Below, in pieces: positions 239 through 18,293 of a DNA stretch of 33,957 nt (its first letter is position 1; each line of letters opens with the position of its first letter). The notes below the pieces were generated by a model that was given only the letters and a program-made list of their open reading frames with translations, was not told where the DNA came from and ran no database searches. This DNA is from Oscillatoriales cyanobacterium PMM_0008. Its GTDB lineage: Bacteria; Cyanobacteriota; Cyanobacteriia; Cyanobacteriales; Aerosakkonemataceae. The DNA is taken from assembly GCA_949128025.1 (NCBI GenBank), contig CASBRD010000345.1, positions 1 to 33,957 of the forward strand, given 5' to 3'. The translations under genes were made by a program, and so were the position numbers.

Positions 239-2986
239 TTACAAATCAATTTCTGCCTTCACTACATCTTCTGTGCGTTGCAGGCGGAAGCCAAATTTTT
301 CGCAGAGGCGCTGCATTTCCACATTTCCTGGTAAAATGTCAGCACTAATACGACTGAGTTTTTCGTCGCGCCCGACTTGTAGCAATCGGCTGAGCAATTC
401 TGTACCCAATCCTCGATGCTGGAATGGATCGGCAACCAAAAGCCCAAACTCTGCCTCGTTAGTGCCGTGCAATTTGATCAAACGTCCGAAACCGAGAATG
501 TGGCGATCGCCCGTCTGCGGATTCGCGTATTCAACCACTAAAGCCATCTCGCGATCGTAATCGATAAAGCAGGTGCGCGTTAGCCGTTCGTGAGAAATTC
601 GGCGGCTTAATTTGAGCAGGTGAAAGTAGCGGAAATAAACCGAGCGATCGCTCAGCGTCTCGTGAAACTTCACTACCAGTGGCTCATCTTCTGGACGAAT
701 CGGACGAATCTTGACAAGCATACCGTCTTTTAGAGTCAGCCGCGATATATATTGAGTTGGATACGGGCGAATTGCCGGACGAGGTAACTGATCGAGCGTT
801 AACTCTTGTTCGTGCAATACTATGCGAGCATCAAGGGCAATTAATTGTTCGCTAGATGCCAAAAGCGGATTAATATCAATTTCCTTAATCCAAGGCTGTT
901 CGACTACCAACTGCGAAAATCTTACCATCAATTGTTCCAGGGCTGCCAAATCCACAGGCGATCGGCCCCGCACCCCCTGAAGCGCCTTGTAAATTTTCGT
1001 CCCCTCCATCATCCGCCGCGCCAGAGTCGTATTCAGCGGCGGTAGCGCCAGCGCCCGATCCTTAAACACTTCCACCAACTGACCCCCCATACCGAATAGC
1101 AGCACTGGGCCAAACTGCGGATCGAGACTGCTACCAATAATCAATTCATAGCCCTCTAATTTAATCATCTTCTGAACAGTCACGCCTTGGAAATGTTCAG
1201 CGCCCACTTTTTCACTCGCAGAAGATTGAATAGCGCGATAAGCTTGTCTCACCTCATCGGCATCCATCAAATTTAACCGCACGCCCCCCACATCTGTTTT
1301 GTGAGTAATCGTTTCAGAAAACAACTTCAGCACCACCGGATAACCTATTTCCCCAGCCAACTTAACCGCTTCTTCCTGATTGGAGGCAATGCGAGTTTCT
1401 ACGATCGGAATTCCATAACTCGCCAACAATTGCTTAGATTCAAATTCGCTCAATAGCGTTCGACCCGATCGGCGAGCATTTTGGATAATAGTTTCAGCGA
1501 CAGGGCGATCGCACGTCTCATCAGTGCAACTTCCTACATCCGTTCCCAATACTGGCGTTTCGTAGAGCGATCGCAAGTTGTAGCTGTAGCGCCACATATA
1601 ATTAAACAACCGCGCTGCCGTATCAGGATAAGGAAATGTCGGTATGCTTGCCTGATTGAGAATATTGGCACCTTCTCTAACGTCTTCCCCACCCATCCAA
1701 CTCGCCAAAATTGGCTTATCTTTAATCTGGGCATAAGGTTTCAGTTGCAGCGCCGTTCCCGTCGGATCGCTCATCGCTTGAGGGGTCAAAATTACCAACA
1801 AACCGTCACTTTTTGGATCGTTAGCTGCCTTTTCCAACGCTTGGGCATAGCGTTCGGGTTTGGCATCTCCCAAAATGTCGATCGGGTTGCCATGACTCCA
1901 GTGCAGGGGTAAAAAGTTGTTGAGTTCGTCAATCGTTTCATCTGAAAGTTCCGTCAGTTTGCCCCCTTCTGTAATCAAAGCATCCGTTGCGATTACCCCC
2001 GGCCCCCCGGCATTCGTGAGAATTGTTAGATTTGGGCCTTTGGGACGCGGCTGTTTGGCCAGCACTTCCGCCATATAAAACAGGTAGGAAATATTATTGA
2101 CACGCAGCACACCGCTGCGGCGAAAAGCGGCATCAAGCACTTCGTCAGAACCCGTCAGCGATCCGGTGTGGGAGGCGGCAGCTTTAGCAGCGGCCTCTGT
2201 GTGGCCCACTTTGATAGCGATAATCGGTTTGCTCAGCGCCACTTCCCGCGCCGCTGAGAGGAACGATCGGGCATCGCCGACAGATTCCATATATATAACT
2301 ATGCTCTCGGTGTGCGGATCATCGCCGAGGTAATAAATTAAATCGCCCCAACCGACATCGAGCATCGAACCAATCGACATAAAGGCACTAAAACCGACGT
2401 TTTCGCGGAAACTCCAATCCAGGATGGCGGTACACAGAGCTCCACTCTGCGAGATGAAGCCAACTTTGCCCGGTTTAGCCATTTTGGAAGCGAAGGTGGC
2501 GTTGAACCCGGCGATCGGACTCATCACGCCCAGGCAGTTGGGGCCAATAATTCGCATTCGCCCCCGCCGTGCTTCCTGCAAGACTTGTCGTTCTAATTCG
2601 ACTCCTACAGCACCGGTTTCTTTGAAGCCAGCAGAAATAATAATCGCTCCTTTGACGGCAGCATCTACGCATTCGCTGATGATGCTCGGTACGGTAGGGG
2701 CTGGGGTGACAATGACGGCGAGATCGACGCGATCGGGCACGGCGGCGATGTTTGGGTAGGCTTTGACGTTCAAAACGCTGCGGCGCTTCGGATTGACAGG
2801 AAACACAGTTCCGCCAAAAGGATTGCCGAGCAGATTTGACAGAATCGTGCGCCCGACGCTGCCTTCTTTTTCTGTCGCGCCAATCACGGCAACGGTTTGC
2901 GGTGCGAAGATCGCGTCAAGGGGTTGGCGTTCGTAGCGCCGAACGTCGAGATCGAGGTCGGTGGTGAGAGTGATGGGCTTTTGCAT
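239..2986 (-). CDS. ADP-forming acetate/acyl-CoA ligase fused to GNAT acetyltransferase
   Basis: 915 residues. The family (acetyl-CoA synthetase, ADP-forming) interconverts acetyl-CoA + ADP + Pi with acetate + CoA + ATP in the cytoplasm, giving substrate-level ATP in fermentation. Domains in order: CoA-binding Rossmann domain (about 20-130, [16 protein letters not shown]), succinyl-CoA-ligase-like domains (about 150-460, GPNCLG at 148-153), ATP-grasp (about 505-720, EIDINPL at 702-708) and a C-terminal GNAT domain (about 750-910, acetyl-CoA loop QHRGLG at 856-861). The phospho-histidine motif SHTG is intact (His273), which argues for a working ligase. Protein acetyltransferases of the Pat type share this architecture but, as I recall, lack that histidine. 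Start is ATG. It is divergent from pflB, which fits acetate formation from Pfl-derived acetyl-CoA. Substrate choice and the target of the GNAT domain cannot be read from sequence. Confidence 0.9.
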
Positions 2987-3137
2987 AATTTTTTTGCATC
3001 CACAGAAGATTATTGCAAGAGATCGGTAACTTCATTCCGTCTTTTAATCTTTGAATAGATAGCCTCTACCTTTTAATTATATAACTTGCTTCTGATTTAT
3101 TATATATAGCGTTTAGCTCGTTTGATCCAGCTTTTCT

Positions 3138-3187
3138 TCTATTTAGCAAGCTAAGCAATAAAAAGGTTGTTTAACTTGCTAAATAGA
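3138..3187. promoter_or_regulatory. 13-bp inverted repeat, candidate operator
   Basis: Arms tctatttagcaag (3138-3150) and cttgctaaataga (3175-3187) are perfect reverse complements, separated by 24 bases. The motif cagctttt also occurs just before the left arm and just after the right arm. It sits about 94 bp upstream of the pflB -10 and about 57 bp upstream of the ligase -10, where a shared activator could bind. It could instead form an RNA hairpin if transcribed. Confidence 0.45.
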
Positions 3188-3280
3188 TCAGCTTTTAGCA
3201 ACAATCGCGTTGTTTATAAAGCAAAATCAAACAATGTATAGTTTTATTGCAACAACGCTCCCGAAAGACTTTTGAGTGGT

Positions 3281-3286
3281 TATAAT
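3281..3286 (+). promoter_or_regulatory. -10 box of the pflB operon
   Basis: Perfect TATAAT, which would place the transcript start near 3293 and give a leader of about 50 nt. The region 17 bp upstream (around 3258-3263) does not resemble TTGACA. Confidence 0.5.
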
Positions 3287-3294
3287 AAAAGTAG

Positions 3295-3332
3295 CACAGG
3301 GGAAAAGCCACCTGTGTAACCAAGAAGGGGAG
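3295..3332 (+). promoter_or_regulatory. pflB leader hairpin and ribosome binding site
   Basis: cacagg (3295-3300) pairs with cctgtg (3311-3316), forming a small hairpin at the predicted 5' end of the mRNA. It is followed by the strong Shine-Dalgarno sequence aaggggag (3325-3332), 10 bases before the pflB ATG at 3343. A 5'-terminal hairpin could stabilise the transcript (inference). Confidence 0.5.
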
Positions 3333-3342
3333 ATAAAAGATT

Positions 3343-5571
3343 ATGTTGGAGCAATGGAAATATTTTGTTCCTGGAAAATGGATGAAAGAAATTAATGTTA
3401 GAGACTTCATCCAAAAGAACTACACCCCCTATGAAGGAAATGAATCTTTTTTGAATGCCCCCACGGAACGCACCCAAAAGCTGTGGGATAAAGTGAAATT
3501 TCTGATGCAGCTAGAGCGGGAACAAGGCGTCTTGGAAACCGATACAAAAGTTCCCTCAACCATCACGTCTCACAGTGCCGGTTACATTGCTAAAGACCTA
3601 GAGCAAATCGTTGGACTGCAAACCGATAAACCCCTGAAGCGGGCTATTATGCCATTGGGTGGCATCCGCATAGTAAAAAGCTCCTTAGAAGCCTACGGAT
3701 ACAAACTCGATTCCCAAACGGAAGAGATATTTAGCAACTACCGCAAAACGCACAACGACGGCGTTTTCGATGCCTACACCCGCGATATGAAAAAGGCGCG
3801 GCATTCCGGGATTATTACAGGCTTGCCCGATGCTTACGGTCGCGGTCGAATTATCGGCGACTACCGACGAGTAGCCTTATATGGCGTAGATCGCTTAATT
3901 GCTGACAAAAAAGAGCAACTGGAATCGCTGGAAGTCGAGTATATTTTGGAGCCGATTATCCAGCAGCGCGAAGAGATTTCCGAACAAATTCGAGCCTTGG
4001 CAGAACTCAAAAAAATGGCAGCCAGCTACGGATTTGATATCAGCCAGCCAGCAGAGGGCGCAAAAGAAGCCGTTCAGTGGACTTACTTTGCTTATCTCGG
4101 GGCGGTGAAAGAGCAAAACGGTGCGGCGATGTCCCTGGGACGAGTTTCGACTTTCCTAGATGTTTATTTTGAGCGGGAATTAAATAATGGCACGCTGACA
4201 GAATCGGAAGCGCAGGAGATTATCGACCACTTTGTGATGAAGCTGCGGATGGTGCGCTTCCTGCGATCGCCCGATTATAACGAGTTGTTTTCAGGAGACC
4301 CCACCTGGGTAACGGAATCGATTGCCGGAATCGGAGAAGATGGCCGTCCTCTAGTCACTAAAACTAGCTTCCGTTTCCTGCACGCTTTATATAATCTCGG
4401 CCCCGCACCCGAACCTAATCTAACTATTTTGTGGGCGGAAAGATTGCCAGTAAATTTCAAGCAGTTCTGCGCCAAAGTTTCGGCTGATACCAGTTCGATT
4501 CAGTACGAAAACGACGATTTAATGAGGCCAGATTATGGCGATGACTATGGGATTGCCTGCTGCGTCTCCGCAATGCGAATTGGCAAGCAGATGCAATTTT
4601 TTGGGGCCCGTGCTAACCTAGCCAAAGCATTGCTGTATGCCATTAATGGCGGTAAGGATGAAAAATCGGGGGAACAAGTAGGCCCTGAGTTAGCCCCAGT
4701 GACTTCTGAATACCTGGACTATGACGAGGTAAAAGCGAAGTTTTACACACTGCTGGATTGGCTTTCCAAGTTGTATGTCAACACCCTGAATGTCATCCAC
4801 TATATGCACGACAAATACTGCTACGAACGGCTAGAATTTGCCTTGCACGATCGCGATATTTTGCGGACTATGGCTTGTGGCGTGGCGGGTTTGTCGGTGG
4901 TGGCAGATGCCCTATCGGCGATGAAGTATGCCAAAGTCAAAGTTATCCGCGACGAGAGAGGCTTAGCGGTGGATTATCAAGTCGAGGGCGATTATCCCAA
5001 GTATGGGAATAACGATGACCGGGTAGATGAAATTGCCGTCAATCTGGTCAAGGATTTTATGAATAAACTCCGTAAGCACGAGACTTATCGCAAGGCGGTA
5101 CTAACGCAGTCGGTTCTCACCATTACTTCTAACGTAGTGTATGGCAAGAAGACTGGCAACACGCCGGATGGACGCAAGGCGGGCGAACCGTTTGCGCCGG
5201 GGGCAAATCCGATGCACGGACGGGATACAAATGGCGCGATCGCGGCGATCGCCTCCGTCGCCAAACTTCCCTACGAACACGCCCAAGATGGCATTTCCTA
5301 CACCTTCTCTATCGTGCCGAAAGCACTCGGCAAAACCGAGGAAAACAAAATCAATAACCTAGTGGGAATGCTCGACGGTTATTTTCACGATGGCGGACAT
5401 CACATTAATATCAACGTCCTCGACAAGGAAACGCTTTTAGAAGCAATGGAGCATCCTGAAAAGTATCCGCAGCTCACCATCCGAGTATCTGGCTACGCCG
5501 TTAATTTTATTAAGTTAACCCGCGACCAACAACTTGAAGTGATTAAACGCACTTTTCACGATCGCATCTAG
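3343..5571 (+). CDS. pflB: Pyruvate formate-lyase (formate C-acetyltransferase)
   Basis: 742 residues (E. coli PflB is 760). This glycyl-radical enzyme cleaves pyruvate with CoA to acetyl-CoA and formate without oxygen. The N-terminal region contains [14 protein letters not shown], as in E. coli PflB. The two adjacent active-site cysteines are Cys406-Cys407 in the motif [11 protein letters not shown]. The C-terminal glycyl-radical loop is RVSGYAV with the radical Gly717, 26 residues from the end. A strong SD (aaggggag) supports the ATG. It is the first gene of pflB-pflA-adhE. The protein appears complete with all catalytic residues, so it should be functional once activated. Because Pfl is cut by oxygen at the glycyl radical, it would act in dark anoxic conditions. 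Only a minority of cyanobacteria are known to carry Pfl. Confidence 0.98.
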
Positions 5572-5589
5572 CATCAGTTAAAGAATCGT

Positions 5590-5649
5590 ACCGGGTTTCT
5601 CTCTATCAAGATCCCAAAAAACAGGCTCGTAAAGCCAAACAAACCCGGT
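5590..5649 (+). repeat. Inverted repeat in the pflB-pflA spacer
   Basis: accgggttt (5590-5598) is the exact reverse complement of aaacccggt (5641-5649), with a 42-base loop. The 143-bp spacer has no clear promoter or SD for pflA. The stem could act as an mRNA processing or stability element giving more PflB than activase, or it may just be a dispersed repeat; accgggttt-type motifs are common in such genomes. Confidence 0.6.
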
Positions 5650-5714
5650 TTGTTAACCCTTCCCTAATAACTGCCTGACTCCGATCGAGCCAAAATTCAA
5701 CCTCCAAAATTGTT

Positions 5715-6446
5715 ATGACTGTTGTTGGCAAAATTCACTCTGTAGAAAGCTGCGGAACAGTAGATGGTCCGGGTATCCGATTCGTAATTTTTACTCAAGG
5801 CTGCCCCCTCCGCTGTCTCTACTGCCACAATCCCGATTGCCGCAATTTGGCAGATGGCAAAGAAGTTACAGTTGATGAACTGATGGAGGAAATTCAAAAA
5901 TATCGCTCCTATATGCGCTTCTCCGGGGGTGGTGTCACAGTCAGCGGCGGCGAACCATTACTCCAGCCAGAATTTGTCACAGAAATCTTCCGGCGCTGCC
6001 AACAACTCGGCATCCATACAGCTCTCGATACTTCGGGATATGCAGATTTACAGACGGCGAAATCCGTACTTAAGTATGTAGATTTGGTACTGTTGGATAT
6101 CAAATCTTTCGCTCCAGAAACCTACCTGAAAGTTACGCACGTTCCCCTCTCACCCACCCTAGAAATCGCTGAGTATCTCAGCGAAATTAAAAAGCCTACT
6201 TGGATTCGATTTGTATTAGTGCCCAATCTAACAGATGACCCCCAGAATATTGAGGGACTTGCTAAGTTTGCGGCAATGCTGCATAATGTAGATAAGGTAG
6301 AAGTGCTTCCGTTTCATAAAATGGGCGAGTACAAATGGGAGCAGTTAGGATACGAGTACCAACTAAAAGACACGCAGCCGCCCACGCCCGAAATGGTGAA
6401 AACCACCCAAGATATTTTTAGAAAACACGGTCTTAAAGTCCAGTGA
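5715..6446 (+). CDS. pflA: Pyruvate formate-lyase activating enzyme (radical SAM)
   Basis: 243 residues (E. coli PflA 246). It uses S-adenosylmethionine and a [4Fe-4S] cluster to generate the glycyl radical on PflB. The radical-SAM motif CxxxCxxC is Cys30, Cys34, Cys37 in TQGCPLRCLYCHNPDC. The N-terminal GTVDGPGIRFVIF and the motif VTVSGGEPLLQPEF are characteristic of activases. It lies 143 bp after pflB and 29 bp before adhE on the same strand, so it is probably cotranscribed. The ATG at 5715 has no obvious Shine-Dalgarno sequence, which may keep activase levels low relative to PflB (inference). It should activate the PflB encoded just upstream. Confidence 0.97.
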   Translation: MTVVGKIHSVESCGTVDGPGIRFVIFTQGCPLRCLYCHNPDCRNLADGKEVTVDELMEEIQKYRSYMRFSGGGVTVSGGEPLLQPEFVTEIFRRCQQLGIHTALDTSGYADLQTAKSVLKYVDLVLLDIKSFAPETYLKVTHVPLSPTLEIAEYLSEIKKPTWIRFVLVPNLTDDPQNIEGLAKFAAMLHNVDKVEVLPFHKMGEYKWEQLGYEYQLKDTQPPTPEMVKTTQDIFRKHGLKVQ

Positions 6447-6475
6447 AATGATTATTCAGACATAGGGAGAAATTT

Positions 6476-9157
6476 ATGAAAGTTACGAACGTTCAAGAAC
6501 TGGAAGAATTGATTCAGAGAGTCAAGGCGGCTCAAGCCCACTATGCCACCTTCACGCAAGAACAGGTGGATGTAATCTTCAAAAAAGCTGCCTTGGCAGC
6601 CAACGCAGCCCGCATCCCACTCGCTAAGATGGCCGTTGCCGAAACTGGCATGGGCGTTGTAGAAGACAAGGTAATTAAAAACCATTTCGCTTCGGAAATT
6701 ATCTACAACAAATACAAGCATGAGAAAACCTGCGGGATCATCGAAGAAGACAAATCCTTTGGCTTTGTAAGAATTGGCGAACCCGTAGGTATTTTAGCGG
6801 GAATTGTGCCGACAACCAACCCCACTTCGACCGCAATTTTTAAAGCGCTCCTTGCCATAAAAACGCGCAATGGGATTATTTTTTCTCCCCACCCACGGGC
6901 GAAAAACTGCACCATTGAAGCGGCAAAAATCGTGCTGCAAGCTGCTGTAGAAGCTGGCGCTCCCGCCAATATTATCGGCTGGATTGACGAGCCTACGGTG
7001 CCGCTTTCTCAACAATTAATGCAACATGGGGATATTAAATTAATTCTGGCAACTGGCGGCCCGGGTATGGTGAAAGCGGCTTATTCGTCGGGACACGCTT
7101 CGCTGGGAGTGGGAGCCGGAAATACACCGGCTGTGATTGACGAAACCGCGCACCTCAAAATGGCAGTTAGCTCGATTATCCTCAGCAAAACTTTCGATAA
7201 TGGGATGATTTGCGCGTCGGAACAGTCGGTTATTGTCGTGGATGAGGTTTACGAAACTGTTAAGCAAGAATTTAGCGATCGCGGCGCTTATTTCCTGACA
7301 GCAGAAGAACGCGATAAACTCCGCAGCCAGATTCTAGTTAACGGGCGGTTGAATCCTGAAATAGTCGGTCAACCCGTGGAAAAAATTGCTCAATTAGCGG
7401 GGATTGCAGTGCCTGCTGGTATCAGAGTTCTGATTGGCGAAGTAGAAGAAATCGGCGCTAATGAGCCTTTCTCCTACGAGAAACTGTCGCCGATCTTGGC
7501 AATGTATCGGGCGAAAGATTTTCCAGAAGCAACAGACAAAGCCGAGCAGCTAATTTTGTTTGGAGGACACGGGCATACGTCGGTGCTTTATACGGATCAG
7601 TCGAATCAAGAACGCATCAAATATTTTGAATCGAAAGTGGAAACGTCGCGGGTGTTGATTAATACGCCGTCTTCGCAGGGTGCGATCGGGGATTTGTATA
7701 ACTTCCGACTCGATCCGTCGCTGACATTGGGTTGCGGTAGTTGGGGCGACAATTCCGTCAGCGTAAATGTTGGCCCTCATCACCTGCTGAATATCAAAAC
7801 GGTGACGGAACGACGGGAAAATATGCTCTGGTTCCGCATTCCGCCAAAGGTGTATTTCAAGTATGGTTCTTTGCCGGTGGCGCTGCGGGAATTGTCGGGT
7901 AAAAAGCGGGCATTTATCGTCACAGATAAGCCGCTATTCGACTTGGGAGTTGCTGAGAAAGTCACCTCAGTTCTGGATGAAATTGGGGTTAAGCACCAAA
8001 TCTTTTTTGATGTGGAGCCCGATCCGTCGCTAACGACGATTAATAAGGGATTGGCAGAAATCAATATCTTCAATCCAGATGTGATTATCTCGATCGGCGG
8101 TGGTTCGCCGATGGATGCGGCAAAAGTCATGTGGTTGATGTACGAGCATCCAGAGATTGAATTTGAAGGGCTGGCGATGCGGTTTATGGATATCCGTAAG
8201 CGGGTGTACGAATTGCCACCGCTGGGTGCAAAGGCGATGATGGTAGCGATTCCAACGACTTCGGGAACGGGTTCGGAAGTGACTCCGTTTGCAGTAGTGA
8301 CGGACGATCGCACGGGGCTTAAATATCCTTTAGCGGATTATGCGCTAACGCCTAATATGGCGATCGTCGATCCGGAATTGGTGCTGAATATGCCCAAAAA
8401 GCTAACGGCTTTCGGCGGGATTGACGCGCTGACTCACGCCCTGGAAGCTTACGTCTCCGTATGCGCTTCGGAGTTTACTAATGGGTTAGCATTAGAGGCG
8501 ATTCGGCTGCTGTTTAAATACTTGCCTTCTGCCTACAAGAATGGTGCGAACGATCCGAAGGCGCGGGAAAAGGTGCATTATGCAGCAACGATCGCGGGGA
8601 TGGCTTTTGCTAATGCCTTCCTGGGAGTTTGTCACTCGATGGCGCATAAATTGGGTTCTACATTCCACGTGCCGCATGGGTTGGCAAATGCGCTGATGAT
8701 TTCTCACGTCATCCGCTATAATGCAACGGATATGCCGTTTAAGCAAGCGATTTTCCCGCAGTACAAGTATCCGAATGCCAAGTGGCGCTATGCACAAATA
8801 GCGGATTATTTGAGGCTGGGTGGCAACAATGAAGAGGAGAAGGTTGAGAAGCTGATTGAGGCGATCGAAACTCTCAAGGGCGAGTTAGATATTCCGCTGA
8901 CGATTAAAGAAGCACTATCGGAAGATGATAAGGCTTTCTACGAACAAGTAGAAGAGATGGCAGAGCAAGCATTCGACGATCAATGTACGGGGGCAAATCC
9001 TCGCTATCCTTTAATTCAGGATTTGAAAGAATTGTTTGTTTTAGCATATCGTGGCTGTCGCGTGGAATCAGCTTTGTATCATACTGAGCCGCAGGAAGAA
9101 TTACTCAAGGATAATGGCTCTAAGGTGTCCGAGGCATCGCTAATGTTGGCAAAATAG
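6476..9157 (+). CDS. adhE: Bifunctional aldehyde-alcohol dehydrogenase
   Basis: 893 residues, usual AdhE length. The N-terminal aldehyde dehydrogenase half (about 1-440) reduces acetyl-CoA to acetaldehyde; its nucleophile is Cys246 in DNGMICASEQ. The C-terminal iron-dependent alcohol dehydrogenase half (about 450-870) makes ethanol; it shows GGGSPMDAAKVMW and the iron-binding histidine region CHSMAHKLG...HVPHG. Each turnover of acetyl-CoA to ethanol oxidises two NADH, which balances glycolysis in the dark. In E. coli AdhE forms long helical filaments (spirosomes). SD agggag at 6464-6469 supports the ATG. It is the last gene of pflB-pflA-adhE and is followed by a rho-independent terminator. 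Confidence 0.98.
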   Translation: MKVTNVQELEELIQRVKAAQAHYATFTQEQVDVIFKKAALAANAARIPLAKMAVAETGMGVVEDKVIKNHFASEIIYNKYKHEKTCGIIEEDKSFGFVRIGEPVGILAGIVPTTNPTSTAIFKALLAIKTRNGIIFSPHPRAKNCTIEAAKIVLQAAVEAGAPANIIGWIDEPTVPLSQQLMQHGDIKLILATGGPGMVKAAYSSGHASLGVGAGNTPAVIDETAHLKMAVSSIILSKTFDNGMICASEQSVIVVDEVYETVKQEFSDRGAYFLTAEERDKLRSQILVNGRLNPEIVGQPVEKIAQLAGIAVPAGIRVLIGEVEEIGANEPFSYEKLSPILAMYRAKDFPEATDKAEQLILFGGHGHTSVLYTDQSNQERIKYFESKVETSRVLINTPSSQGAIGDLYNFRLDPSLTLGCGSWGDNSVSVNVGPHHLLNIKTVTERRENMLWFRIPPKVYFKYGSLPVALRELSGKKRAFIVTDKPLFDLGVAEKVTSVLDEIGVKHQIFFDVEPDPSLTTINKGLAEINIFNPDVIISIGGGSPMDAAKVMWLMYEHPEIEFEGLAMRFMDIRKRVYELPPLGAKAMMVAIPTTSGTGSEVTPFAVVTDDRTGLKYPLADYALTPNMAIVDPELVLNMPKKLTAFGGIDALTHALEAYVSVCASEFTNGLALEAIRLLFKYLPSAYKNGANDPKAREKVHYAATIAGMAFANAFLGVCHSMAHKLGSTFHVPHGLANALMISHVIRYNATDMPFKQAIFPQYKYPNAKWRYAQIADYLRLGGNNEEEKVEKLIEAIETLKGELDIPLTIKEALSEDDKAFYEQVEEMAEQAFDDQCTGANPRYPLIQDLKELFVLAYRGCRVESALYHTEPQEELLKDNGSKVSEASLMLAK

Positions 9158-9204
9158 CGATAGTTTGATGCGATCGCCCCCAGGTTGAAACCTAATGGCT
9201 ACGC

Positions 9205-9233
9205 GAAAAAAGCTCGTCTAGGCGGGCTTTTTT
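9205..9233 (+). terminator. Rho-independent terminator after adhE
   Basis: Stem aaaaaagctcg / cgggctttttt (one G-U pair), loop tctagg region, ending in a T run at 9228-9233. It lies about 50 bp after the adhE stop and closes the fermentation operon. The A run on the left arm would let it also serve transcription from the right. Confidence 0.8.
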
Positions 9234-9460: not shown

Positions 9461-12400
9461 TTAATTTTTTATCATCGGCAATTCCAATACAAACTCAGTC
9501 CCTTTTCCAGGGGTTGAATTGACACTAATTACCCCTCTATGTTTTTCTACGACGATTTGATGAGCGATCGCCAGCCCCAATCCCGTACCTTTGCCAACAT
9601 CTTTAGTGGTAAATAGATAGTCGAAGATCCGGGCTTTCACCTCTTCTGTCATTCCTTTTCCGTTATCTGCGATCGCCACGTAAACGCGATCGCCCGCTGC
9701 TATTGTCTGAATCGTAATTTGATTGGGATGGGCTTTAATGTCCGCAAAACTCAGCCCTTGATTCGATTCTTCTAAGGCATCGATCGCATTAGCAATAATA
9801 TTCATAAACACTTGATTTAATTGACCCGGAAAGCAATTAATTTCAGGAATTTTACCGTAATTGGTAATAACTTCAATCGCGGGACGAGTATCATTAGCTT
9901 TGAGGCGATGGCGTAAAATCAAGATGGTGCTATCAATTCCTTCATGGAGATTGAAGCTTTGTTTTTGGTCGCTATCGGCACGGGAGAAAGTGCGGAGACT
10001 CTTGCTGATGCTTGTGATGCGATCGCCCCCATCTTTCATGGCTCTGATTAACTTGGGTAAATCAGAGCGTAAATATTCCAGGTCAATTGTCTCTAATTCC
10101 TCTTCAATTTCAGTCCCAGGTTGAGGGAATTTATCGTTGTAGAGGTCAATCAGATCAAATAGGTCATTGACGGAATCTTGGACAGCACCAACGTTGCCAA
10201 TAATGCAGCCGACGGGATTGTTGATTTCGTGGGCAACTCCGGCAACTAAATTTCCCAAAGCTGACATTTTTTCACTTTGGACAATTTGGATCTGGGCTTG
10301 CTGTAACGAGTTTAAGGCATTTTCTAAGGCAAGGGATTTCTGCTGTAAGGCAATTTCTGCAACTTTGCGATCGCTAATATCCAAGAATAATCCATCCCAA
10401 ACCATAGACCCATCGGCAAGTTTTTGGATTCGAGATTCCCCATGAATCCACTTAATAATTCCTGATGGGGTGACAATTCGCCCTGACCATTGCCAGGAAG
10501 ATAGGGTTTGAATAGTGTGAGTTTGGGACTGTTGATAACTTGCGATGTCGTCTGGATGCACCATATTGTCGAAAAACTGCCAATTGGACATGGCTTGCTC
10601 AGGGGTAATTTCGAGCAAGCTGTAACAGTCGGCACTAATATAGCTCAACGATATGACCGCATCGGGAATTATGCGATATTGATAAACAACACCGGGAACA
10701 TTATCTACAAGTTTCTCAAACCGAGAGTTACTGGCGCTCAATTCGGCTAATGACTGCTCTAGCTGTTGAGCATAGTTCTGCGATCGCTCATAAAGTTGGG
10801 CATTTTCTAGGGAAATGGCAGCTTGAGCGCATAGCAAATTGAGCAGTTCCACGCGATCGCTCGTAAACGCCCCCGTCGCTAAATTATTTTCTAGATATAA
10901 AATGCCCATCAACTTACCCTGATGCAAAATCGGGCTGCACAAGATACTCTTCGGCTGCTGACGAATGATATAGGCGTCATTGGCTAAAGTCGGATCGGCA
11001 CTCGCATCCAGCAGCACAACAGTCTGCCTGTTGTGCTTCACTTTGTAAATCAGCTTCAGGGGAATGTCCTGGCTCTCCTCAACAGGAAGGCGTTGCAACA
11101 CTACTGGCTCCGTCCCCACGGCCATTGACCCTTCGATCGACAGGCGTTCACCTTTGGTGTCGCGTAGCGAATCGTCTCGCAAGATCATTAACACACACTT
11201 ATCTGCTCCCGCATTTTCAATGACGATATGCAGCAATGTCGAGAGCAGTTTTTCGAGTTCGATTTCGCCAGAAAGGGTTTGGGAAGCTTTGAGAATTGCA
11301 GCTAAATCCAGAGAATTTGAGACGCTGCTGGAGGAGGAATAAGTGGAGGTGACAGTTCCTAATGTGAAGAGAGTTTCGTGGGTTGAGAGCCTAGAACGGG
11401 TTTGCTGGAGAATAGGAGCAAGCAGTTGGGGATAGCGTGTTTCCAAGTCGGCAGCCTTGGCTTTAGCTCCCCAGCGGCTATAGCTATAGTAGGCTTCAAT
11501 CATGTATGACTGAGCGATGCGCTCTTTGCCCCACTCCAGGTAAAACTTTGCTGCCAGTTCATTGGCGATCGCTTCTTCTTGGATGTATTCGTTTTCTTTG
11601 GCTCCAGAAATCGCGCGATCGTACCAATCTCCTGCTTCATAATTCTTGCCTAAAATCCGACATTTTTCTGCCTCCACTAAGTCAACTTTATGTTTAAAAT
11701 TCATGGGTGCATGGTACGCCCAATGCTGCATTCTGGTCTGATTTATAGTAAGTTGCTCAAGCAATTGCTGTTGTTGGTTGGCTTCTGCATAGGGATACAT
11801 ATCTAGGCTTGCTAGAGACTGATAAAAAATACGTTGGGCACTAATGAATAATCCCGACACATTTGGCTCATAAGGTTCTGCTGCTTGTAAATTTGCGAGC
11901 GCTTGTTCCGGCTGATTAAAAAAATAATGAAGTATTGCTTTAATCAGATAAACATAAAACAGAGATGTACCATTTTGTTGTTCCAGCAGCACGGGCATCA
12001 TCTCCGACTCATTGAATGCCGATCCTATTAGTAACAAATAATTCTCTGCCTGACCCAGCAAATTCAGAATTCCTTGTCTGCCAATCTGAGCAAAAATACT
12101 ATGGTAACTTAGTTTTTGTTTTTGAAACTCATCAATATAATCACGATGTTTCCGAGCGACAGTTTCAAGATATTCACCCACGAATAAACTGTGGCTACAA
12201 TAGTTGAGAATAGCATAGCCTCCAGGCACAATTTCTCCAGATTCTAAACCACTGGAATAAGCTAAAAGCAGAGGTTTGAGGGTTTCTCGAACGGATTCTT
12301 TCCACAGCCTGATATGGCCATTAAATGCAGCCCAGACATGGGCCTTAAATTTTAGAGATTGCAGTTTTTCCAAGAGTCTCAAAGACAATTGACCGTAACG

Positions 12401-15283
12401 GTATCCTGAATCAATGTCATTTAGCACCCCACATAAAAGTATCCCATAGCCAGCATAGGCGCTTGCCGCTAGCGGCGAATTCCCGTGTCTAATACAGAGA
12501 TTCACCATTGTCAACGCGAAGGGTGCCAGCAGCTGCGGATATACGACACACGCGGTATCAGAGATCCTGTGCAAAATCCTCAGAGCAGCAAGTTTCTCTG
12601 GATCGGTCATGTCAGGTAGGTTGATTAACGCCTCAATCTCCTGAAGTTGGGGCGGTTCTTCCTCTAAGCTCACCCCCAATCTCTCCATAACTGAAAGTCC
12701 TAGCTCTAGGGCAGCCTGCATCTGAACTTGGGCAATGTAAACTTCAACTTTCAGGATATAGGCTTTGGTTTGGTCTAGCAGAGTTTTAGCTTGAGTCAAT
12801 ATAAGTTCTAATTGTGTCTGGCTGCGAGCGAAGTTACCATTAAAATATTCTGCTTCCGCCCCTTCTAAATAGAGTGCTAAGGTTAGTTGATAATCAATTT
12901 GCCAGCTATCAGGTGTTAGCTGTTCGAGTCCGACAGTTAAATAACGCAATGCGGCGTTATAAGCGGTGGAAACTTTTGCTTTGTGTCCAGCGAGTAAGTT
13001 TAATTGAGCTAATTCATATCGCTGGTGCGGCTGAGTAATTACGTTCAATCCGTTATTTAATTGATTAACAATCTCAAAAATATGTTTTTCTCGTTCGGCT
13101 TCGGGGATATTTTTCAATAGCCGTTGTCCGATTTTCCAATGCGTTGCGTGTTTTCGATCGTCAGGAATCAACGAATAGGCGGCTTGCTGAACGCGATCGT
13201 GCAAAAATCGATAAGTGGGATTACCTGAAGCCTTGAATACTTCCTCACAATCTGAACTATCAGATTGGGTAAAAAATTTATAGATTCTGGTAGTAGGAAT
13301 CACCAAACCTTCATGCAATGCTTTCCATAAAGCCGTCGCCGTAATTACCGGCGATTTCTCACTGACAATTGCTAAGGTATTCAAATCAAACTGTGCCCCA
13401 ATACAAGCCGCGAATTTGAGAACATCTTGAGTCTCTGTCGGCAATTTCTGCAACTGCTGCGCCATAAACTCAACTACATCATCGGTGAGCGCTGCCTCTC
13501 GAACTTTGCTAATATCGCACTGCCAATGTCCTGCTTTAATATCAAAACTAATCAATTCATCCTGATGCAATGCCTTGAGAAACTGCGTCGCAAAAAACGG
13601 GTTTCCTTGGGTTTTGCGATCCACTAATTCCGTCAGCGGTTGTGCCAATTCAGAAGAACAAGTCAGCGTAGCCGCTACCAATTGATTCAAACTGGTTCGA
13701 GCGAGCGGTGCTAATACAATCCTATGGCGAATTGCTCCTGCCTTACTGACTTCATCTAGAGTCAACATTAGCGGATGACCTGGTGAAACTTCATTGTCCC
13801 GGTATGCCCCAATCATCAGTAGATAACTAGATTGCGACTCACCGACGAGCAACTGTATCAACTTCAGCGATGCCGAATCTACCCACTGCAAGTCATCCAA
13901 AAACATCACCAAGGGATGCTCTTTTGTGGTGAAGACAGCAATGAATTTGTGGAAGAGCAAATTAAACAGATTTTGAGCAGCAATCCCCGACAATTCTGGG
14001 GCTGGTGGTTGTTGTCCAATAATCCGTTCTAGTTCGGGAATGACTTCAATAATGACTTGTCCGCTGTCACCGATCGCTTCTAGAATTTTGGTTTTCCATT
14101 CTTTGAGTTGGGCATCACTTTCAGCCAGTAATTGTCCCATTAAATCGCGGAATGCCTGGACAAAGGCAGAGAAGGGAATGTTGCGGTTAAACTGGTCGAA
14201 TTTGCCTTTGATGAAATAGCCCCGTTGCCGGACAATTGGTTTATGCACTTCGTTGACAACAGCGGTTTTACCAATACCGGAAAAACCCGCAACCAGCATT
14301 AATTCGGATCTGCCATTCGCCACGCGATCGAATGCGCTCAGCAGAGTCTGTACTTCCGTTTCTCGACCGTAGAGTTTTTCGGGGATGAGAAAGCGATCGC
14401 ACAAATCTCGCTGACCCAATTCAAACAATTCAATGCTTCCGGTTTCTTTCCACTGATGCAAACACCGTTCTAAGTCATGCTTCAATCCCAAAGCACTCTG
14501 ATAGCGCTCTTCCGCATTCTTGGCCATCAGCTTCATCACCATATCCGAAACCACCGGCGGAATTTCTTCGTTGTTGATTGAAGGAGGGTGTTTGGCAATA
14601 TGACAGTGAACCAACTCCATCGGGTCGTCACACCCAAACGGCAGTTCGCCCGTCAGCAGTTCATACAAAGTAACTCCCAAAGAATAAAAGTCCGTGCGGT
14701 AGTCTATCCCTCTGTTCATTCGTCCGGTTTGTTCGGGAGAAATATAGGCGAGGGTTCCCTCTAAAACGTTGGGATTTTGGATTTCTTGGGTTTCTCTCGG
14801 CAGTAGAGATGCGATGCTAAAGTCGATCAGTTTGACTTGTTTAGTTTCGGGATGAATTAGGACGTTAGCTGGCTTAATATCTTTGTGATTGACTCGGTTT
14901 CGGTAGAGTCCGTTGAGAATGTCGGTTATTTGAATGGCGATCGCCAAGACTTCTGTGAGAGTCAGCGATCGGTCTTGGGTGTACTCTCGTAGGGAAATAC
15001 CGCCAAAATCCTCCATCACTAGGGCATAACTGTTGCGGTAGGATTCTAGAGTGTAGGCTTCAACGACTCCCGGCAGGTGAAGATTCTTAGCAATGGTATA
15101 TTGGTTGCGGAATTGCAGCAGTTCGCTGAAGCTGGGATAGTCTCGATTCAGCAGTTTGATGACCACCGGATGCTGGTCTGTTTCTCGGATGGCTCGATAA
15201 ACTAGGGTTCTCGAACCGCAGTAAAGTTGCTCGATCGGACGATATCCGGCAATTACGCTTGTTAAATCTACATCTGCATTCAT
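9461..15283 (-). CDS. Ser/Thr kinase - AAA ATPase - GAF - PAS - sensor histidine kinase
   Basis: 1940 residues. Order: Ser/Thr protein kinase (about 10-285; Lys43, HKDIKPAN with Asp135, and DFS at 154-156 in place of DFG); AAA_16-type ATPase (about 303-560; Walker A GFSGIGKT 333-340, Walker B VMFLDD around 459-464); a helical TPR-like region (about 740-1290); GAF (about 1325-1497); PAS with C-terminal PAC (about 1518-1640); short coiled coil; histidine kinase with phospho-acceptor His1685 in GVAHEINNP and ATPase boxes DNGKGM and [11 protein letters not shown]. The glycine loop of the kinase is degenerate, as I recall for this family. There is no membrane segment, so it is a cytosolic sensor. 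Such hybrids are common in filamentous cyanobacteria, but ligand and partners are unknown. No response regulator is adjacent. Start ATG. Degraded kinase pieces flank it on both sides. Confidence 0.95.
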   Translation of the reverse strand: MNADVDLTSVIAGYRPIEQLYCGSRTLVYRAIRETDQHPVVIKLLNRDYPSFSELLQFRNQYTIAKNLHLPGVVEAYTLESYRNSYALVMEDFGGISLREYTQDRSLTLTEVLAIAIQITDILNGLYRNRVNHKDIKPANVLIHPETKQVKLIDFSIASLLPRETQEIQNPNVLEGTLAYISPEQTGRMNRGIDYRTDFYSLGVTLYELLTGELPFGCDDPMELVHCHIAKHPPSINNEEIPPVVSDMVMKLMAKNAEERYQSALGLKHDLERCLHQWKETGSIELFELGQRDLCDRFLIPEKLYGRETEVQTLLSAFDRVANGRSELMLVAGFSGIGKTAVVNEVHKPIVRQRGYFIKGKFDQFNRNIPFSAFVQAFRDLMGQLLAESDAQLKEWKTKILEAIGDSGQVIIEVIPELERIIGQQPPAPELSGIAAQNLFNLLFHKFIAVFTTKEHPLVMFLDDLQWVDSASLKLIQLLVGESQSSYLLMIGAYRDNEVSPGHPLMLTLDEVSKAGAIRHRIVLAPLARTSLNQLVAATLTCSSELAQPLTELVDRKTQGNPFFATQFLKALHQDELISFDIKAGHWQCDISKVREAALTDDVVEFMAQQLQKLPTETQDVLKFAACIGAQFDLNTLAIVSEKSPVITATALWKALHEGLVIPTTRIYKFFTQSDSSDCEEVFKASGNPTYRFLHDRVQQAAYSLIPDDRKHATHWKIGQRLLKNIPEAEREKHIFEIVNQLNNGLNVITQPHQRYELAQLNLLAGHKAKVSTAYNAALRYLTVGLEQLTPDSWQIDYQLTLALYLEGAEAEYFNGNFARSQTQLELILTQAKTLLDQTKAYILKVEVYIAQVQMQAALELGLSVMERLGVSLEEEPPQLQEIEALINLPDMTDPEKLAALRILHRISDTACVVYPQLLAPFALTMVNLCIRHGNSPLAASAYAGYGILLCGVLNDIDSGYRYGQLSLRLLEKLQSLKFKAHVWAAFNGHIRLWKESVRETLKPLLLAYSSGLESGEIVPGGYAILNYCSHSLFVGEYLETVARKHRDYIDEFQKQKLSYHSIFAQIGRQGILNLLGQAENYLLLIGSAFNESEMMPVLLEQQNGTSLFYVYLIKAILHYFFNQPEQALANLQAAEPYEPNVSGLFISAQRIFYQSLASLDMYPYAEANQQQQLLEQLTINQTRMQHWAYHAPMNFKHKVDLVEAEKCRILGKNYEAGDWYDRAISGAKENEYIQEEAIANELAAKFYLEWGKERIAQSYMIEAYYSYSRWGAKAKAADLETRYPQLLAPILQQTRSRLSTHETLFTLGTVTSTYSSSSSVSNSLDLAAILKASQTLSGEIELEKLLSTLLHIVIENAGADKCVLMILRDDSLRDTKGERLSIEGSMAVGTEPVVLQRLPVEESQDIPLKLIYKVKHNRQTVVLLDASADPTLANDAYIIRQQPKSILCSPILHQGKLMGILYLENNLATGAFTSDRVELLNLLCAQAAISLENAQLYERSQNYAQQLEQSLAELSASNSRFEKLVDNVPGVVYQYRIIPDAVISLSYISADCYSLLEITPEQAMSNWQFFDNMVHPDDIASYQQSQTHTIQTLSSWQWSGRIVTPSGIIKWIHGESRIQKLADGSMVWDGLFLDISDRKVAEIALQQKSLALENALNSLQQAQIQIVQSEKMSALGNLVAGVAHEINNPVGCIIGNVGAVQDSVNDLFDLIDLYNDKFPQPGTEIEEELETIDLEYLRSDLPKLIRAMKDGGDRITSISKSLRTFSRADSDQKQSFNLHEGIDSTILILRHRLKANDTRPAIEVITNYGKIPEINCFPGQLNQVFMNIIANAIDALEESNQGLSFADIKAHPNQITIQTIAAGDRVYVAIADNGKGMTEEVKARIFDYLFTTKDVGKGTGLGLAIAHQIVVEKHRGVISVNSTPGKGTEFVLELPMIKN

Positions 15284-16559: not shown

Positions 16560-17309
16560 TTACACTTTTCCAAAACGACGATCGCGTTTCTGATAATCGC
16601 ACAAAGCCTGATGAAACTCCGCTCGGTCAAAATCAGGCCATAGCGTTTCAGTAATATAAATTTCTGCATAAGCCATTTGCCAGAGCAGAAAATTGCTAAT
16701 TCGCATTTCCCCACTCGTGCGGATCAATAAATCCGGGTCGCAAATACCTGAAGTATAAAGGTGACGTTCAAATAAAGCTTCATCAATTTGTTCCGGTTGC
16801 AAAAGACCTTGCTGCACCTGAGATGCGATCGCACGAGCTGCCTGCAAAATTTCTTGGCGTCCCCCGTAGTTCGTCGCTACAGTAAACTTTATACCCTGGT
16901 TTTGCTTAGTCTCATCCATCGATCGCTCAATGGAAGCTTGGAGCGGGAGCGGCAAAGCATTCAAATTCCCCACAAACCGGATTTGAACATTCTCCTCCAT
17001 CATCTCCCGCAGTTCCTGCCGCAACACCCTTTCAAACAAAGTCATCAAAAAATCGACTTCCTCCAAAGGGCGTCCCCAGTTCTCCGTAGAAAAAGCATAA
17101 GCAGTCAGCGCTTCCACACCCCAATCCCTACAACAGCGCAGAAGATCCTTAAGCGCATCAACTCCCCGGCGATGGCCCATAATCCGGGGTAGCCCTTGTC
17201 GCTTAGCCCACCGACCATTTCCATCCATAATCACTGCCACGTGCCTGGGCAGTCGTTCTCGCACTAAATCAGCAGGCAGTTCTTGTAACAGAGTTTGCGC
17301 TTGAGTCAT
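16560..17309 (-). CDS. uppS: Undecaprenyl (polyprenyl) diphosphate synthase, cis type
   Basis: 249 residues from the ATG at 17309. The enzyme condenses isopentenyl diphosphate units onto farnesyl diphosphate to make the lipid carrier for peptidoglycan and surface polysaccharides. Signature motifs: [20 protein letters not shown] with catalytic Asp29, [10 protein letters not shown], and [19 protein letters not shown]. The chosen start gives a 4-base ATGA overlap with the cdaA stop, typical of translational coupling; an in-frame ATG at 17330 would add seven residues. It is the third gene of lysA-cdaA-uppS. The C terminus is short, as usual for the family. Confidence 0.96.
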
Positions 17310-18211
17310 TTTTTTTCTCGACAAGCCCATGATGGCAGACGGAGTAAACGCGAGACCAGCTGAGCCCTTGAACCAATCTTGCGGCCTAAACTCCAGAGAT
17401 TCGGAGCCACAACCCGCTCATCGCTTGATGGCGAGAATCGTGCCTCCAACAGTTCCTTCAGTTTACTGCTGGTCAACGGTCTATTTAGAGTTCCCTTTTC
17501 GGCTAGGGAAATAGAGCCCGTTTCCTCAGATACAACAATACACAAACAATTTTCGACTCGCTCAGTAATTCCCATTGCCGCTCGGTGACGAGTACCCAGC
17601 TGCCGCGAAGCCGTGCGTTCGGAAAGAGGCAGAATCACTCCAGCCGCCATAATACGAGAACCACCAATCAAAACCGCCCCATCGTGCAATAGAGTAGTCG
17701 TCTGGAAAATCGTCTGCAATAGTTCCTTAGACACTTCCGCATCCAGTTTCACACCCAGTACCGAAAAATCCCGGTCATCGATCGGACTGCTAGTTTCCAT
17801 CACAATTAAAGCACCGATGCGATTTTGCGAAAGTTCTTTAACCGCATCCACAATCTCATCGATTACGCTGTCTGGCTGGGCCGTAGTTCGACGGTCGGAG
17901 TGAAACAGCTGCATAAATTCACCCCGCCCCAACTGTTCCAGAAATCGGCGAAATTCCGACTGGAAAATCACCGCCATAGCCACAGCAGAGCCCACCACCA
18001 GCTTTTCGAGGACAAAATTCAACAGCGTCAGCTTCAGACTGTTACTCACAGCCGTCGCCAGCATTAAGACAATAAATCCCCTTACAACCCAAAGGGTGCG
18101 TCGCTCACCAATGATGACAAGCACCATATAAGTGAGAGCTAGAACCAAACCTACATCAAGGGATTGAGTCCAGTTTAGGTTTGTCAGTAGCCGCCCAAGC
18201 GCATCTCCCAT
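17306..18211 (-). CDS. cdaA: Diadenylate cyclase (c-di-AMP synthase), CdaA type
   Basis: 301 residues from the ATG at 18211. It makes c-di-AMP from two ATP. Three hydrophobic membrane segments lie at about residues 15-85 ([30 protein letters not shown] and the following one). The DAC domain carries the catalytic DGA at 177-179 ([11 protein letters not shown]) and RHR at 208-210 ([11 protein letters not shown]). An in-frame GTG at 18283 would add 24 residues, but those are encoded by heptad-repeat DNA, so I reject it. The gene overlaps uppS by 4 bp and follows lysA, an order I recall from other cyanobacteria. c-di-AMP usually controls potassium/osmotic balance and, in cyanobacteria, night survival. 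Confidence 0.96.
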
Positions 18212-18251
18212 TAGATCTGGTAATCGTTGGTGGTTAGTGGTTAGTGCGTAG

Positions 18252-18293
18252 TTAGTAGTTAGTGGTGACCGCCAACTAACCACTAACTACTAA
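18252..18293. repeat. 15-bp heptad-based inverted repeat upstream of cdaA
   Basis: ttagtagttagtggt (18252-18266) is the exact reverse complement of accactaactactaa (18279-18293), with a 12-base loop. It consists of TTAGTGG/TTAGTAG-like heptads that continue to about 18226. It lies in the lysA-cdaA spacer, about 40 bp before the cdaA ATG, and could attenuate or process the lysA-cdaA-uppS transcript (inference). Confidence 0.75.

Follow-up and report, generated by a model that had tools for sequence, protein, structure and literature searches.

A cyanobacterial pyruvate formate-lyase cluster in which a fused ADP-forming acyl-CoA ligase may stand in for Pta and AckA

What becomes of the acetyl-CoA made by pyruvate formate-lyase (Pfl) in a cyanobacterium whose pfl gene lies beside a gene for an ADP-forming acyl-CoA ligase? 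The question is raised by a contig of 33,957 nt from Oscillatoriales cyanobacterium PMM_0008 (the window below is this whole stretch), in which four intact genes, for ligase, Pfl, Pfl activase and AdhE, flank a divergent control region of 356 bp (Table 1). An earlier note on this DNA had placed four fermentation genes together around this region with their catalytic residues intact, and our results confirm both statements. The block of 239–9233 that it gave starts correctly, but its last gene already stops at 9157.

Pfl scored 1227.6 bits against TIGR01255 (equivalog cut-off 994.2), the activase, whose gene adjoins pfl, 333 bits against TIGR02493 (cut-off 231.75), and AdhE 1428 bits against NF010378, the profile of fused aldehyde and iron alcohol dehydrogenases (cut-off 951). 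Pfl has adjacent Cys406 and Cys407 and the radical Gly717 inside RVSGY, which starts at residue 714; the activase motif at residue 30 reads CPLRCLYC, and Cys246 of AdhE and His273 of the ligase are in place. Because four intact genes of one pathway lie together, and the same grouping is seen in other genomes, the grouping is not due to chance.

Table 1. Features of the fermentation cluster in the window
Feature	Position	Strand	Basis
Fused ADP-forming acyl-CoA (probably acetate-CoA) ligase with C-terminal GNAT, 915 aa	239..2986	-	frame, domains, profiles, PDB matches
GNAT acetyltransferase domain of ligase, residues 759-901	284..712	-	Pfam PF13302; aligned with PatZ-type 9isq, 9it0
Codon of ligase His273, within SHTGSL	2168..2170	-	residue check; kept in 37/37 aligned rows
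Divergent control region, 356 bp, between ligase and pfl starts	2987..3342	.	frame coordinates
Inverted repeat inside control region	3138..3187	.	two 21-nt arms, 90% complementary, 8-nt spacer
Pyruvate formate-lyase, Cys406-Cys407 and Gly717	3343..5571	+	frame, domains, profile, residues
Pfl-activating radical SAM enzyme, CxxxCxxC at 30	5715..6446	+	frame, domains, profile, residues
Bifunctional aldehyde/alcohol dehydrogenase AdhE	6476..9157	+	frame, domains, profile, residues

The chemistry of the Pfl, activase, AdhE and ligase steps is known from their families. We consider it likely that the cluster is a module for dark, anoxic fermentation of pyruvate, in which the ligase stands in for Pta and AckA, and AckA serves phosphoketolase. 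The activase would install the glycyl radical on Gly717, and Pfl would then cleave pyruvate to formate and acetyl-CoA. AdhE would convert part of the acetyl-CoA to ethanol with reoxidation of NADH, and the ligase would turn the remainder into acetate through a phospho-histidine (His273), with ADP converted to ATP, in place of Pta and AckA; the AckA of the host would work in the phosphoketolase route instead. We infer the direction of the ligase reaction, its specificity for acetyl groups and the co-regulation of the module, and likewise a functional link between AckA and phosphoketolase and whatever part the GNAT domain may play as an acetyltransferase. The pathway proposed in the earlier note, from pyruvate to formate, ethanol and acetate plus ATP, is well supported by protein families, residues and genome content.

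The draft assembly of the host comprises 469 contigs and is 98.75% complete, and family searches in it, which cannot exclude an enzyme of novel type, gave no match for Pta, PduL or acetyl-CoA hydrolase/transferase. For PFOR there was no convincing match in the host, only a single profile match of 4.6e-5, below cut-off, in a frame of 674 aa. Hence, within the set of families covered, no anaerobic enzyme other than Pfl leads from pyruvate to acetyl-CoA, and, as Pta, PduL and CoA-transferase are without match, the ligase is the only ATP-yielding route from acetyl-CoA to acetate. AckA was found 173 nt downstream of the phosphoketolase gene on the same strand. The idea that the ligase is used rather than Pta-AckA therefore holds for Pta but not for AckA, which is present. 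The overall conversion proposed for the ligase, acetyl-CoA to acetate plus ATP, is that of the Pta-AckA pathway, and replacement of that pathway on acetyl-CoA by the ligase is supported genomically.

The ligase carries the Pfam domains CoA-binding, Succ_CoA_lig, Ligase_CoA_2 and ATP-grasp_5, followed at the C-terminus by a GNAT domain that the earlier description lacked. Its score against TIGR02717 (acetate-CoA ligase alpha, NCBI) was 538.4 bits, below the cut-off of 567.15, and we therefore file it as working like an ADP-forming acetate-CoA ligase (ACD) and as a non-member of TIGR02717. The CoA-binding, Succ_CoA_lig and ATP-grasp domains of ACD are all present, as are the alpha His and the ATP-grasp His. 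With ADP-forming acyl-CoA ligases it shares the SHTG loop of the alpha His, His273 in SHTGSL aligning with that of 8wzu, 9y43 and 2csu, and the second His, His562 aligning with that of the ATP-grasp chain 4xyl_B; it differs from them as one chain with an added GNAT and by its score below the TIGR02717 cut-off. We take His273 to be the position of the catalytic phospho-histidine and assume catalytic roles for both His273 and His562.

The best full-length PDB matches of the ligase were 9it0 and 9isq, named protein acetyltransferase and probably E. coli PatZ; ADP-forming acyl-CoA ligases came next. Domain order, length and GNAT alignment are like those of these type I acetyltransferases of PatZ/YfiQ type (9it0, 886 aa). 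However, in 9it0 and 9isq the loop around the His273 position is shortened and the His is lost, whereas the window ligase has the loop intact. Because 9it0 also has the His at position 562, only His273 tells the ligase from PatZ-type chains. His273, His562, the GNAT Glu and Q-x-x-G-x-G were invariant in 37/37 aligned cyanobacterial ligases, window included; this uneven sample combines the 30 best-scoring ligases with the pfl-linked ones after removal of 3 duplicates, and a subfamily of 50% identity is absent from it.

Acetyltransferases have been sorted into classes, as outlined in part of PMC6456759, and the cyanobacterial lysine acetyltransferase named in the relevant section of PMC12224894 is cGNAT2 of Synechococcus PCC 7002. 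The window protein has the build of type I lysine acetyltransferases, an N-terminal ligase-like part with a C-terminal GNAT. In the section of the review PMC8556138 on enzymes of this build, the ligase part is described as inactive. From this description, in which the catalytic His is missing, the window ligase departs by its sequence, as His273 is present. Both its ligase half and its GNAT half look functional.

Our survey can help to judge whether the window is a single oddity. Members of the host's class are photosynthetic. Across the 386 genomes sampled from the phylum, Pfl was matched in 107, of which 26 belong to the host's order, 12 to the rest of its class and 69 to other classes. With 26 of 105 genomes of the order carrying it, the view that Pfl is uncommon in cyanobacteria was not borne out; nor was the view that a ligase beside Pfl is unusual, since the ligase was strongly matched in 36 of the 38 Pfl genomes of the class. 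The same 38 genomes held AckA in 36, strong phosphoketolase in 36, Pta in 4 (34/38 being without it), PduL and CoA-transferase in 0, and PFOR strongly in 15 and partially in 1 more. The two without ligase, G011 and G111, both carry Pta (Fisher p 0.0085, kinship ignored), and all three of Pfl, ligase and Pta occur in G008 and G170. Neither AckA nor strong phosphoketolase was matched in G229 and G233, which nevertheless have Pfl and ligase; among the 38, strong phosphoketolase is missing in exactly these two genomes without AckA. Thus, "ligase instead of Pta" looks like a rule among Pfl cyanobacteria and no single oddity, and the gene content suggests that in most sampled Pfl cyanobacteria the fused ligase, rather than Pta plus AckA, makes ATP from acetyl-CoA. 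In the order-wide comparisons that follow, ligases were taken at E < 1e-70 with fragmentary matches included (e.g. G030, G199, G278, G352), and a Pta match of G183 (2.5e-4, below cut-off, with internal stops) was excluded.

Within the order, where the kinship-sorted list of ligase matches appears complete for the 105 genomes, the ligase was found in 25/26 genomes with Pfl vs 41/79 without (p 1.6e-5), and genomes with neither ligase nor Pta numbered 0/26 with Pfl vs 30/79 without (p 3.9e-5), kinship being ignored in both comparisons. The presence of the ligase in 41 genomes without Pfl implies uses beyond Pfl. The idea that ligase and Pta strictly exclude each other within the order was rejected, as Pta occurred in 10/66 ligase genomes vs 9/39 others (p 0.43, relatedness ignored as in every p value of the survey); a p of 0.0008 appeared only post hoc, after omission of the 50%-identity subfamily of 7 genomes.

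The grouping recurs at other cyanobacterial pfl loci, 41 of which were compared, several of them ending at contig ends: 29 have the activase near pfl, 22 have AdhE and 10 have the ligase. The arrangement of the ligase varies: in G203 and G336 it shares the divergent orientation seen in the window, and elsewhere it is downstream of pfl in G127 and G233, downstream of adhE in G005, G129, G085, G177 and G332, and convergent with adhE in G172. Among 35 other genomes with Pfl and ligase, 10 have it no farther than about 9 kb from pfl, with 0.19 expected by chance; in the remaining 25 it was unseen near pfl, some loci being interrupted by contig ends. On the tree of the 37 ligases the linked state takes 6 changes, of which well-supported branches force 5, where "unlinked" means unseen beside pfl, contig breaks may hide links, and gain and loss are indistinguishable. 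A single origin of the linkage was rejected, with 0 of 200 bootstrap trees having 1 change. Residue patterns at the other cyanobacterial loci were kept for the Pfl Cys pair in 40/41, RVSGYAV in 39/41, the activase in 29/29 and AdhE in 17/22. At one of the loci that miss a pattern (L135, in G336) Pfl matches only positions 3–505 of the profile though the contig continues, and a full-length divergent ligase adjoins this apparently truncated pfl.

Since the ligase carries a GNAT domain, a PatZ-like regulator is a real rival to its role in acetate formation. The fused protein could mainly be a lysine acetyltransferase of PatZ/YfiQ type, with the ligase-like part sensing acetyl-CoA, that regulates the module or the acetate enzymes, acetate coming from elsewhere. 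This would fit the domain order of 9it0 and 9isq, its best full-length matches, the GNAT Glu and Q-x-x-G-x-G kept in every row of the alignment, and the inactive ligase part described for this build in the section of PMC8556138 cited above. However, the alpha-His loop lost in 9it0 and 9isq is present in all 37 cyanobacterial ligases, His562 being uninformative here, and such a regulator would leave 34 of the 38 Pfl genomes without any searched ATP-yielding route from acetyl-CoA to acetate. We regard it as quite improbable. The reaction of ADP-forming acyl-CoA ligases is reversible, and the window enzyme might instead activate acetate, external or made by phosphoketolase and AckA, to acetyl-CoA. 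The frequency of the ligase in genomes without Pfl (41/79) and the presence of phosphoketolase and AckA in 36/38 Pfl genomes are consistent with this direction, but the ligase is repeatedly linked to pfl, whose product is acetyl-CoA, and co-occurs with Pfl, and G229 and G233 hold Pfl and ligase while lacking AckA and strong phosphoketolase; reversal thus appears rather unlikely to us.

The neighbourhood could also be shared by descent without joint function, as an old order kept in some lineages or by chance shuffling. The 25 of 35 genomes in which no ligase turned up at distances to pfl of up to about 9 kb, some of them cut by contig ends, would agree with this, and the linked state could be ancient and lost many times. 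Against it stand the excess of linkage (10/35 vs 0.19 expected), the four different arrangements, and the 6 changes, gains or losses, that the ligase tree requires (5 being forced), and we hold this explanation to be very improbable. Under the module reading, most Pfl cyanobacteria might obtain acetate and ATP from a bifunctional enzyme whose GNAT half acetylates proteins with the same acetyl-CoA, AckA belonging to phosphoketolase; we offer this wider proposal tentatively, as possible but doubtful. If it is true, energy conservation and a regulatory signal lie within one polypeptide.

In our literature searches, no work on a cyanobacterial ADP-forming acetate ligase came up. The fermentation genes of hot-spring Synechococcus were reportedly treated by Steunou et al. 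in 2006. For Lyngbya aestuarii BL J, the relevant section of PMC4261827 gives no Pfl gene and no formate and lists phosphotransacetylase, and this case bears neither for nor against our reading of the window. The likely acetate-forming step would be a fused ligase whose characterised relatives have, in the section of PMC8556138 that concerns them, an inactive ligase part. If true, different genes will have to be knocked out or modelled for cyanobacterial dark fermentation, and a bifunctional ligase-acetyltransferase becomes directly testable.

The window Pfl groups with loci of Nostoc, Pseudanabaena and Microcoleaceae. Nostoc sp. FACHB-110 shares order and strand, with Pfl 78%, activase 68% and AdhE 77% identical to the window; its 20-kb stretch has no ligase match, whereas the window ligase is divergent from pfl. 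A quick Pfl tree placed 42 cyanobacterial Pfls together, except that the Pfl of Tissierella simiarum (Bacillota; L002:9001-11217), which is 79% identical to the window Pfl, stood beside the window row (SH-aLRT 92, unstarred). A recent transfer of pfl is possible on this evidence.

Small genomes of the same phylum that belong to a family labelled f32, presumably gut Gastranaerophilales, have a split Pfl in which the glycyl-radical domain is a separate gene (e.g. L151:8208-10641, L150, L197-L216). The core frame, 694–732 aa between stops, has a tail containing Cys and breaks off immediately ahead of the glycyl-radical domain; 12–140 nt downstream follows a small frame of 78–138 aa with RVSGYAV and the radical Gly. 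All 22 f32 loci examined were so arranged, the Cys pair being seen in both of those inspected for it; Pfl is matched in 67 genomes of f32, in 10 at full length, and the other 57 were examined in part. The small protein of L151 takes the NCBI name GrcA3 (160.9 bits vs a cut-off of 158) and recalls YfiD/GrcA, described in the pertinent part of PMC8683613 as a spare part for oxygen-cut Pfl; but the f32 enzyme seems, from its genes, to be built in two pieces. No description of a split Pfl was found in our literature searches.

In the control region, the 70-nt stretch 3128–3197 around the inverted repeat can form a hairpin (−27.3 kcal/mol, z −5.77), and the genome holds no second full copy of the repeat. 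Upstream motifs were searched in 31 stretches, from the window and 30 of the 41 pfl loci, 11 being left out. No 7- to 9-mer exceeded shuffles as a conserved operator upstream of pfl. Patterns of known motifs were found for NtcA in 4 and for an FNR/CRP-like form in 2 of the 31 stretches, and for CRP, LexA and Rex in 0/31. Sigma-70-like sites numbered 10 with 9.5 expected, and terminator-like sites 11 with 7.0 expected. The dyad AACAA-N5-TTGTT occurred in 5/31 stretches, the highest count of such dyads in 10 shuffles being 3, and showed no enrichment genome-wide (17 sites vs 22 for the backwards control); as a pfl operator it is a weak lead, and none of the motifs tried could be established as conserved upstream of pfl.

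Beyond the cluster, adhE is adjoined by a gene for a sensor of 1940 aa (9461-15283, minus strand) with Ser/Thr kinase, AAA_16, GAF, PAS and histidine kinase domains. Further along the window, the gene of a DAC (cyclic-di-AMP synthase) domain protein directly adjoins that of undecaprenyl diphosphate synthase (17306-18283 and 16560-17330, both on the minus strand).
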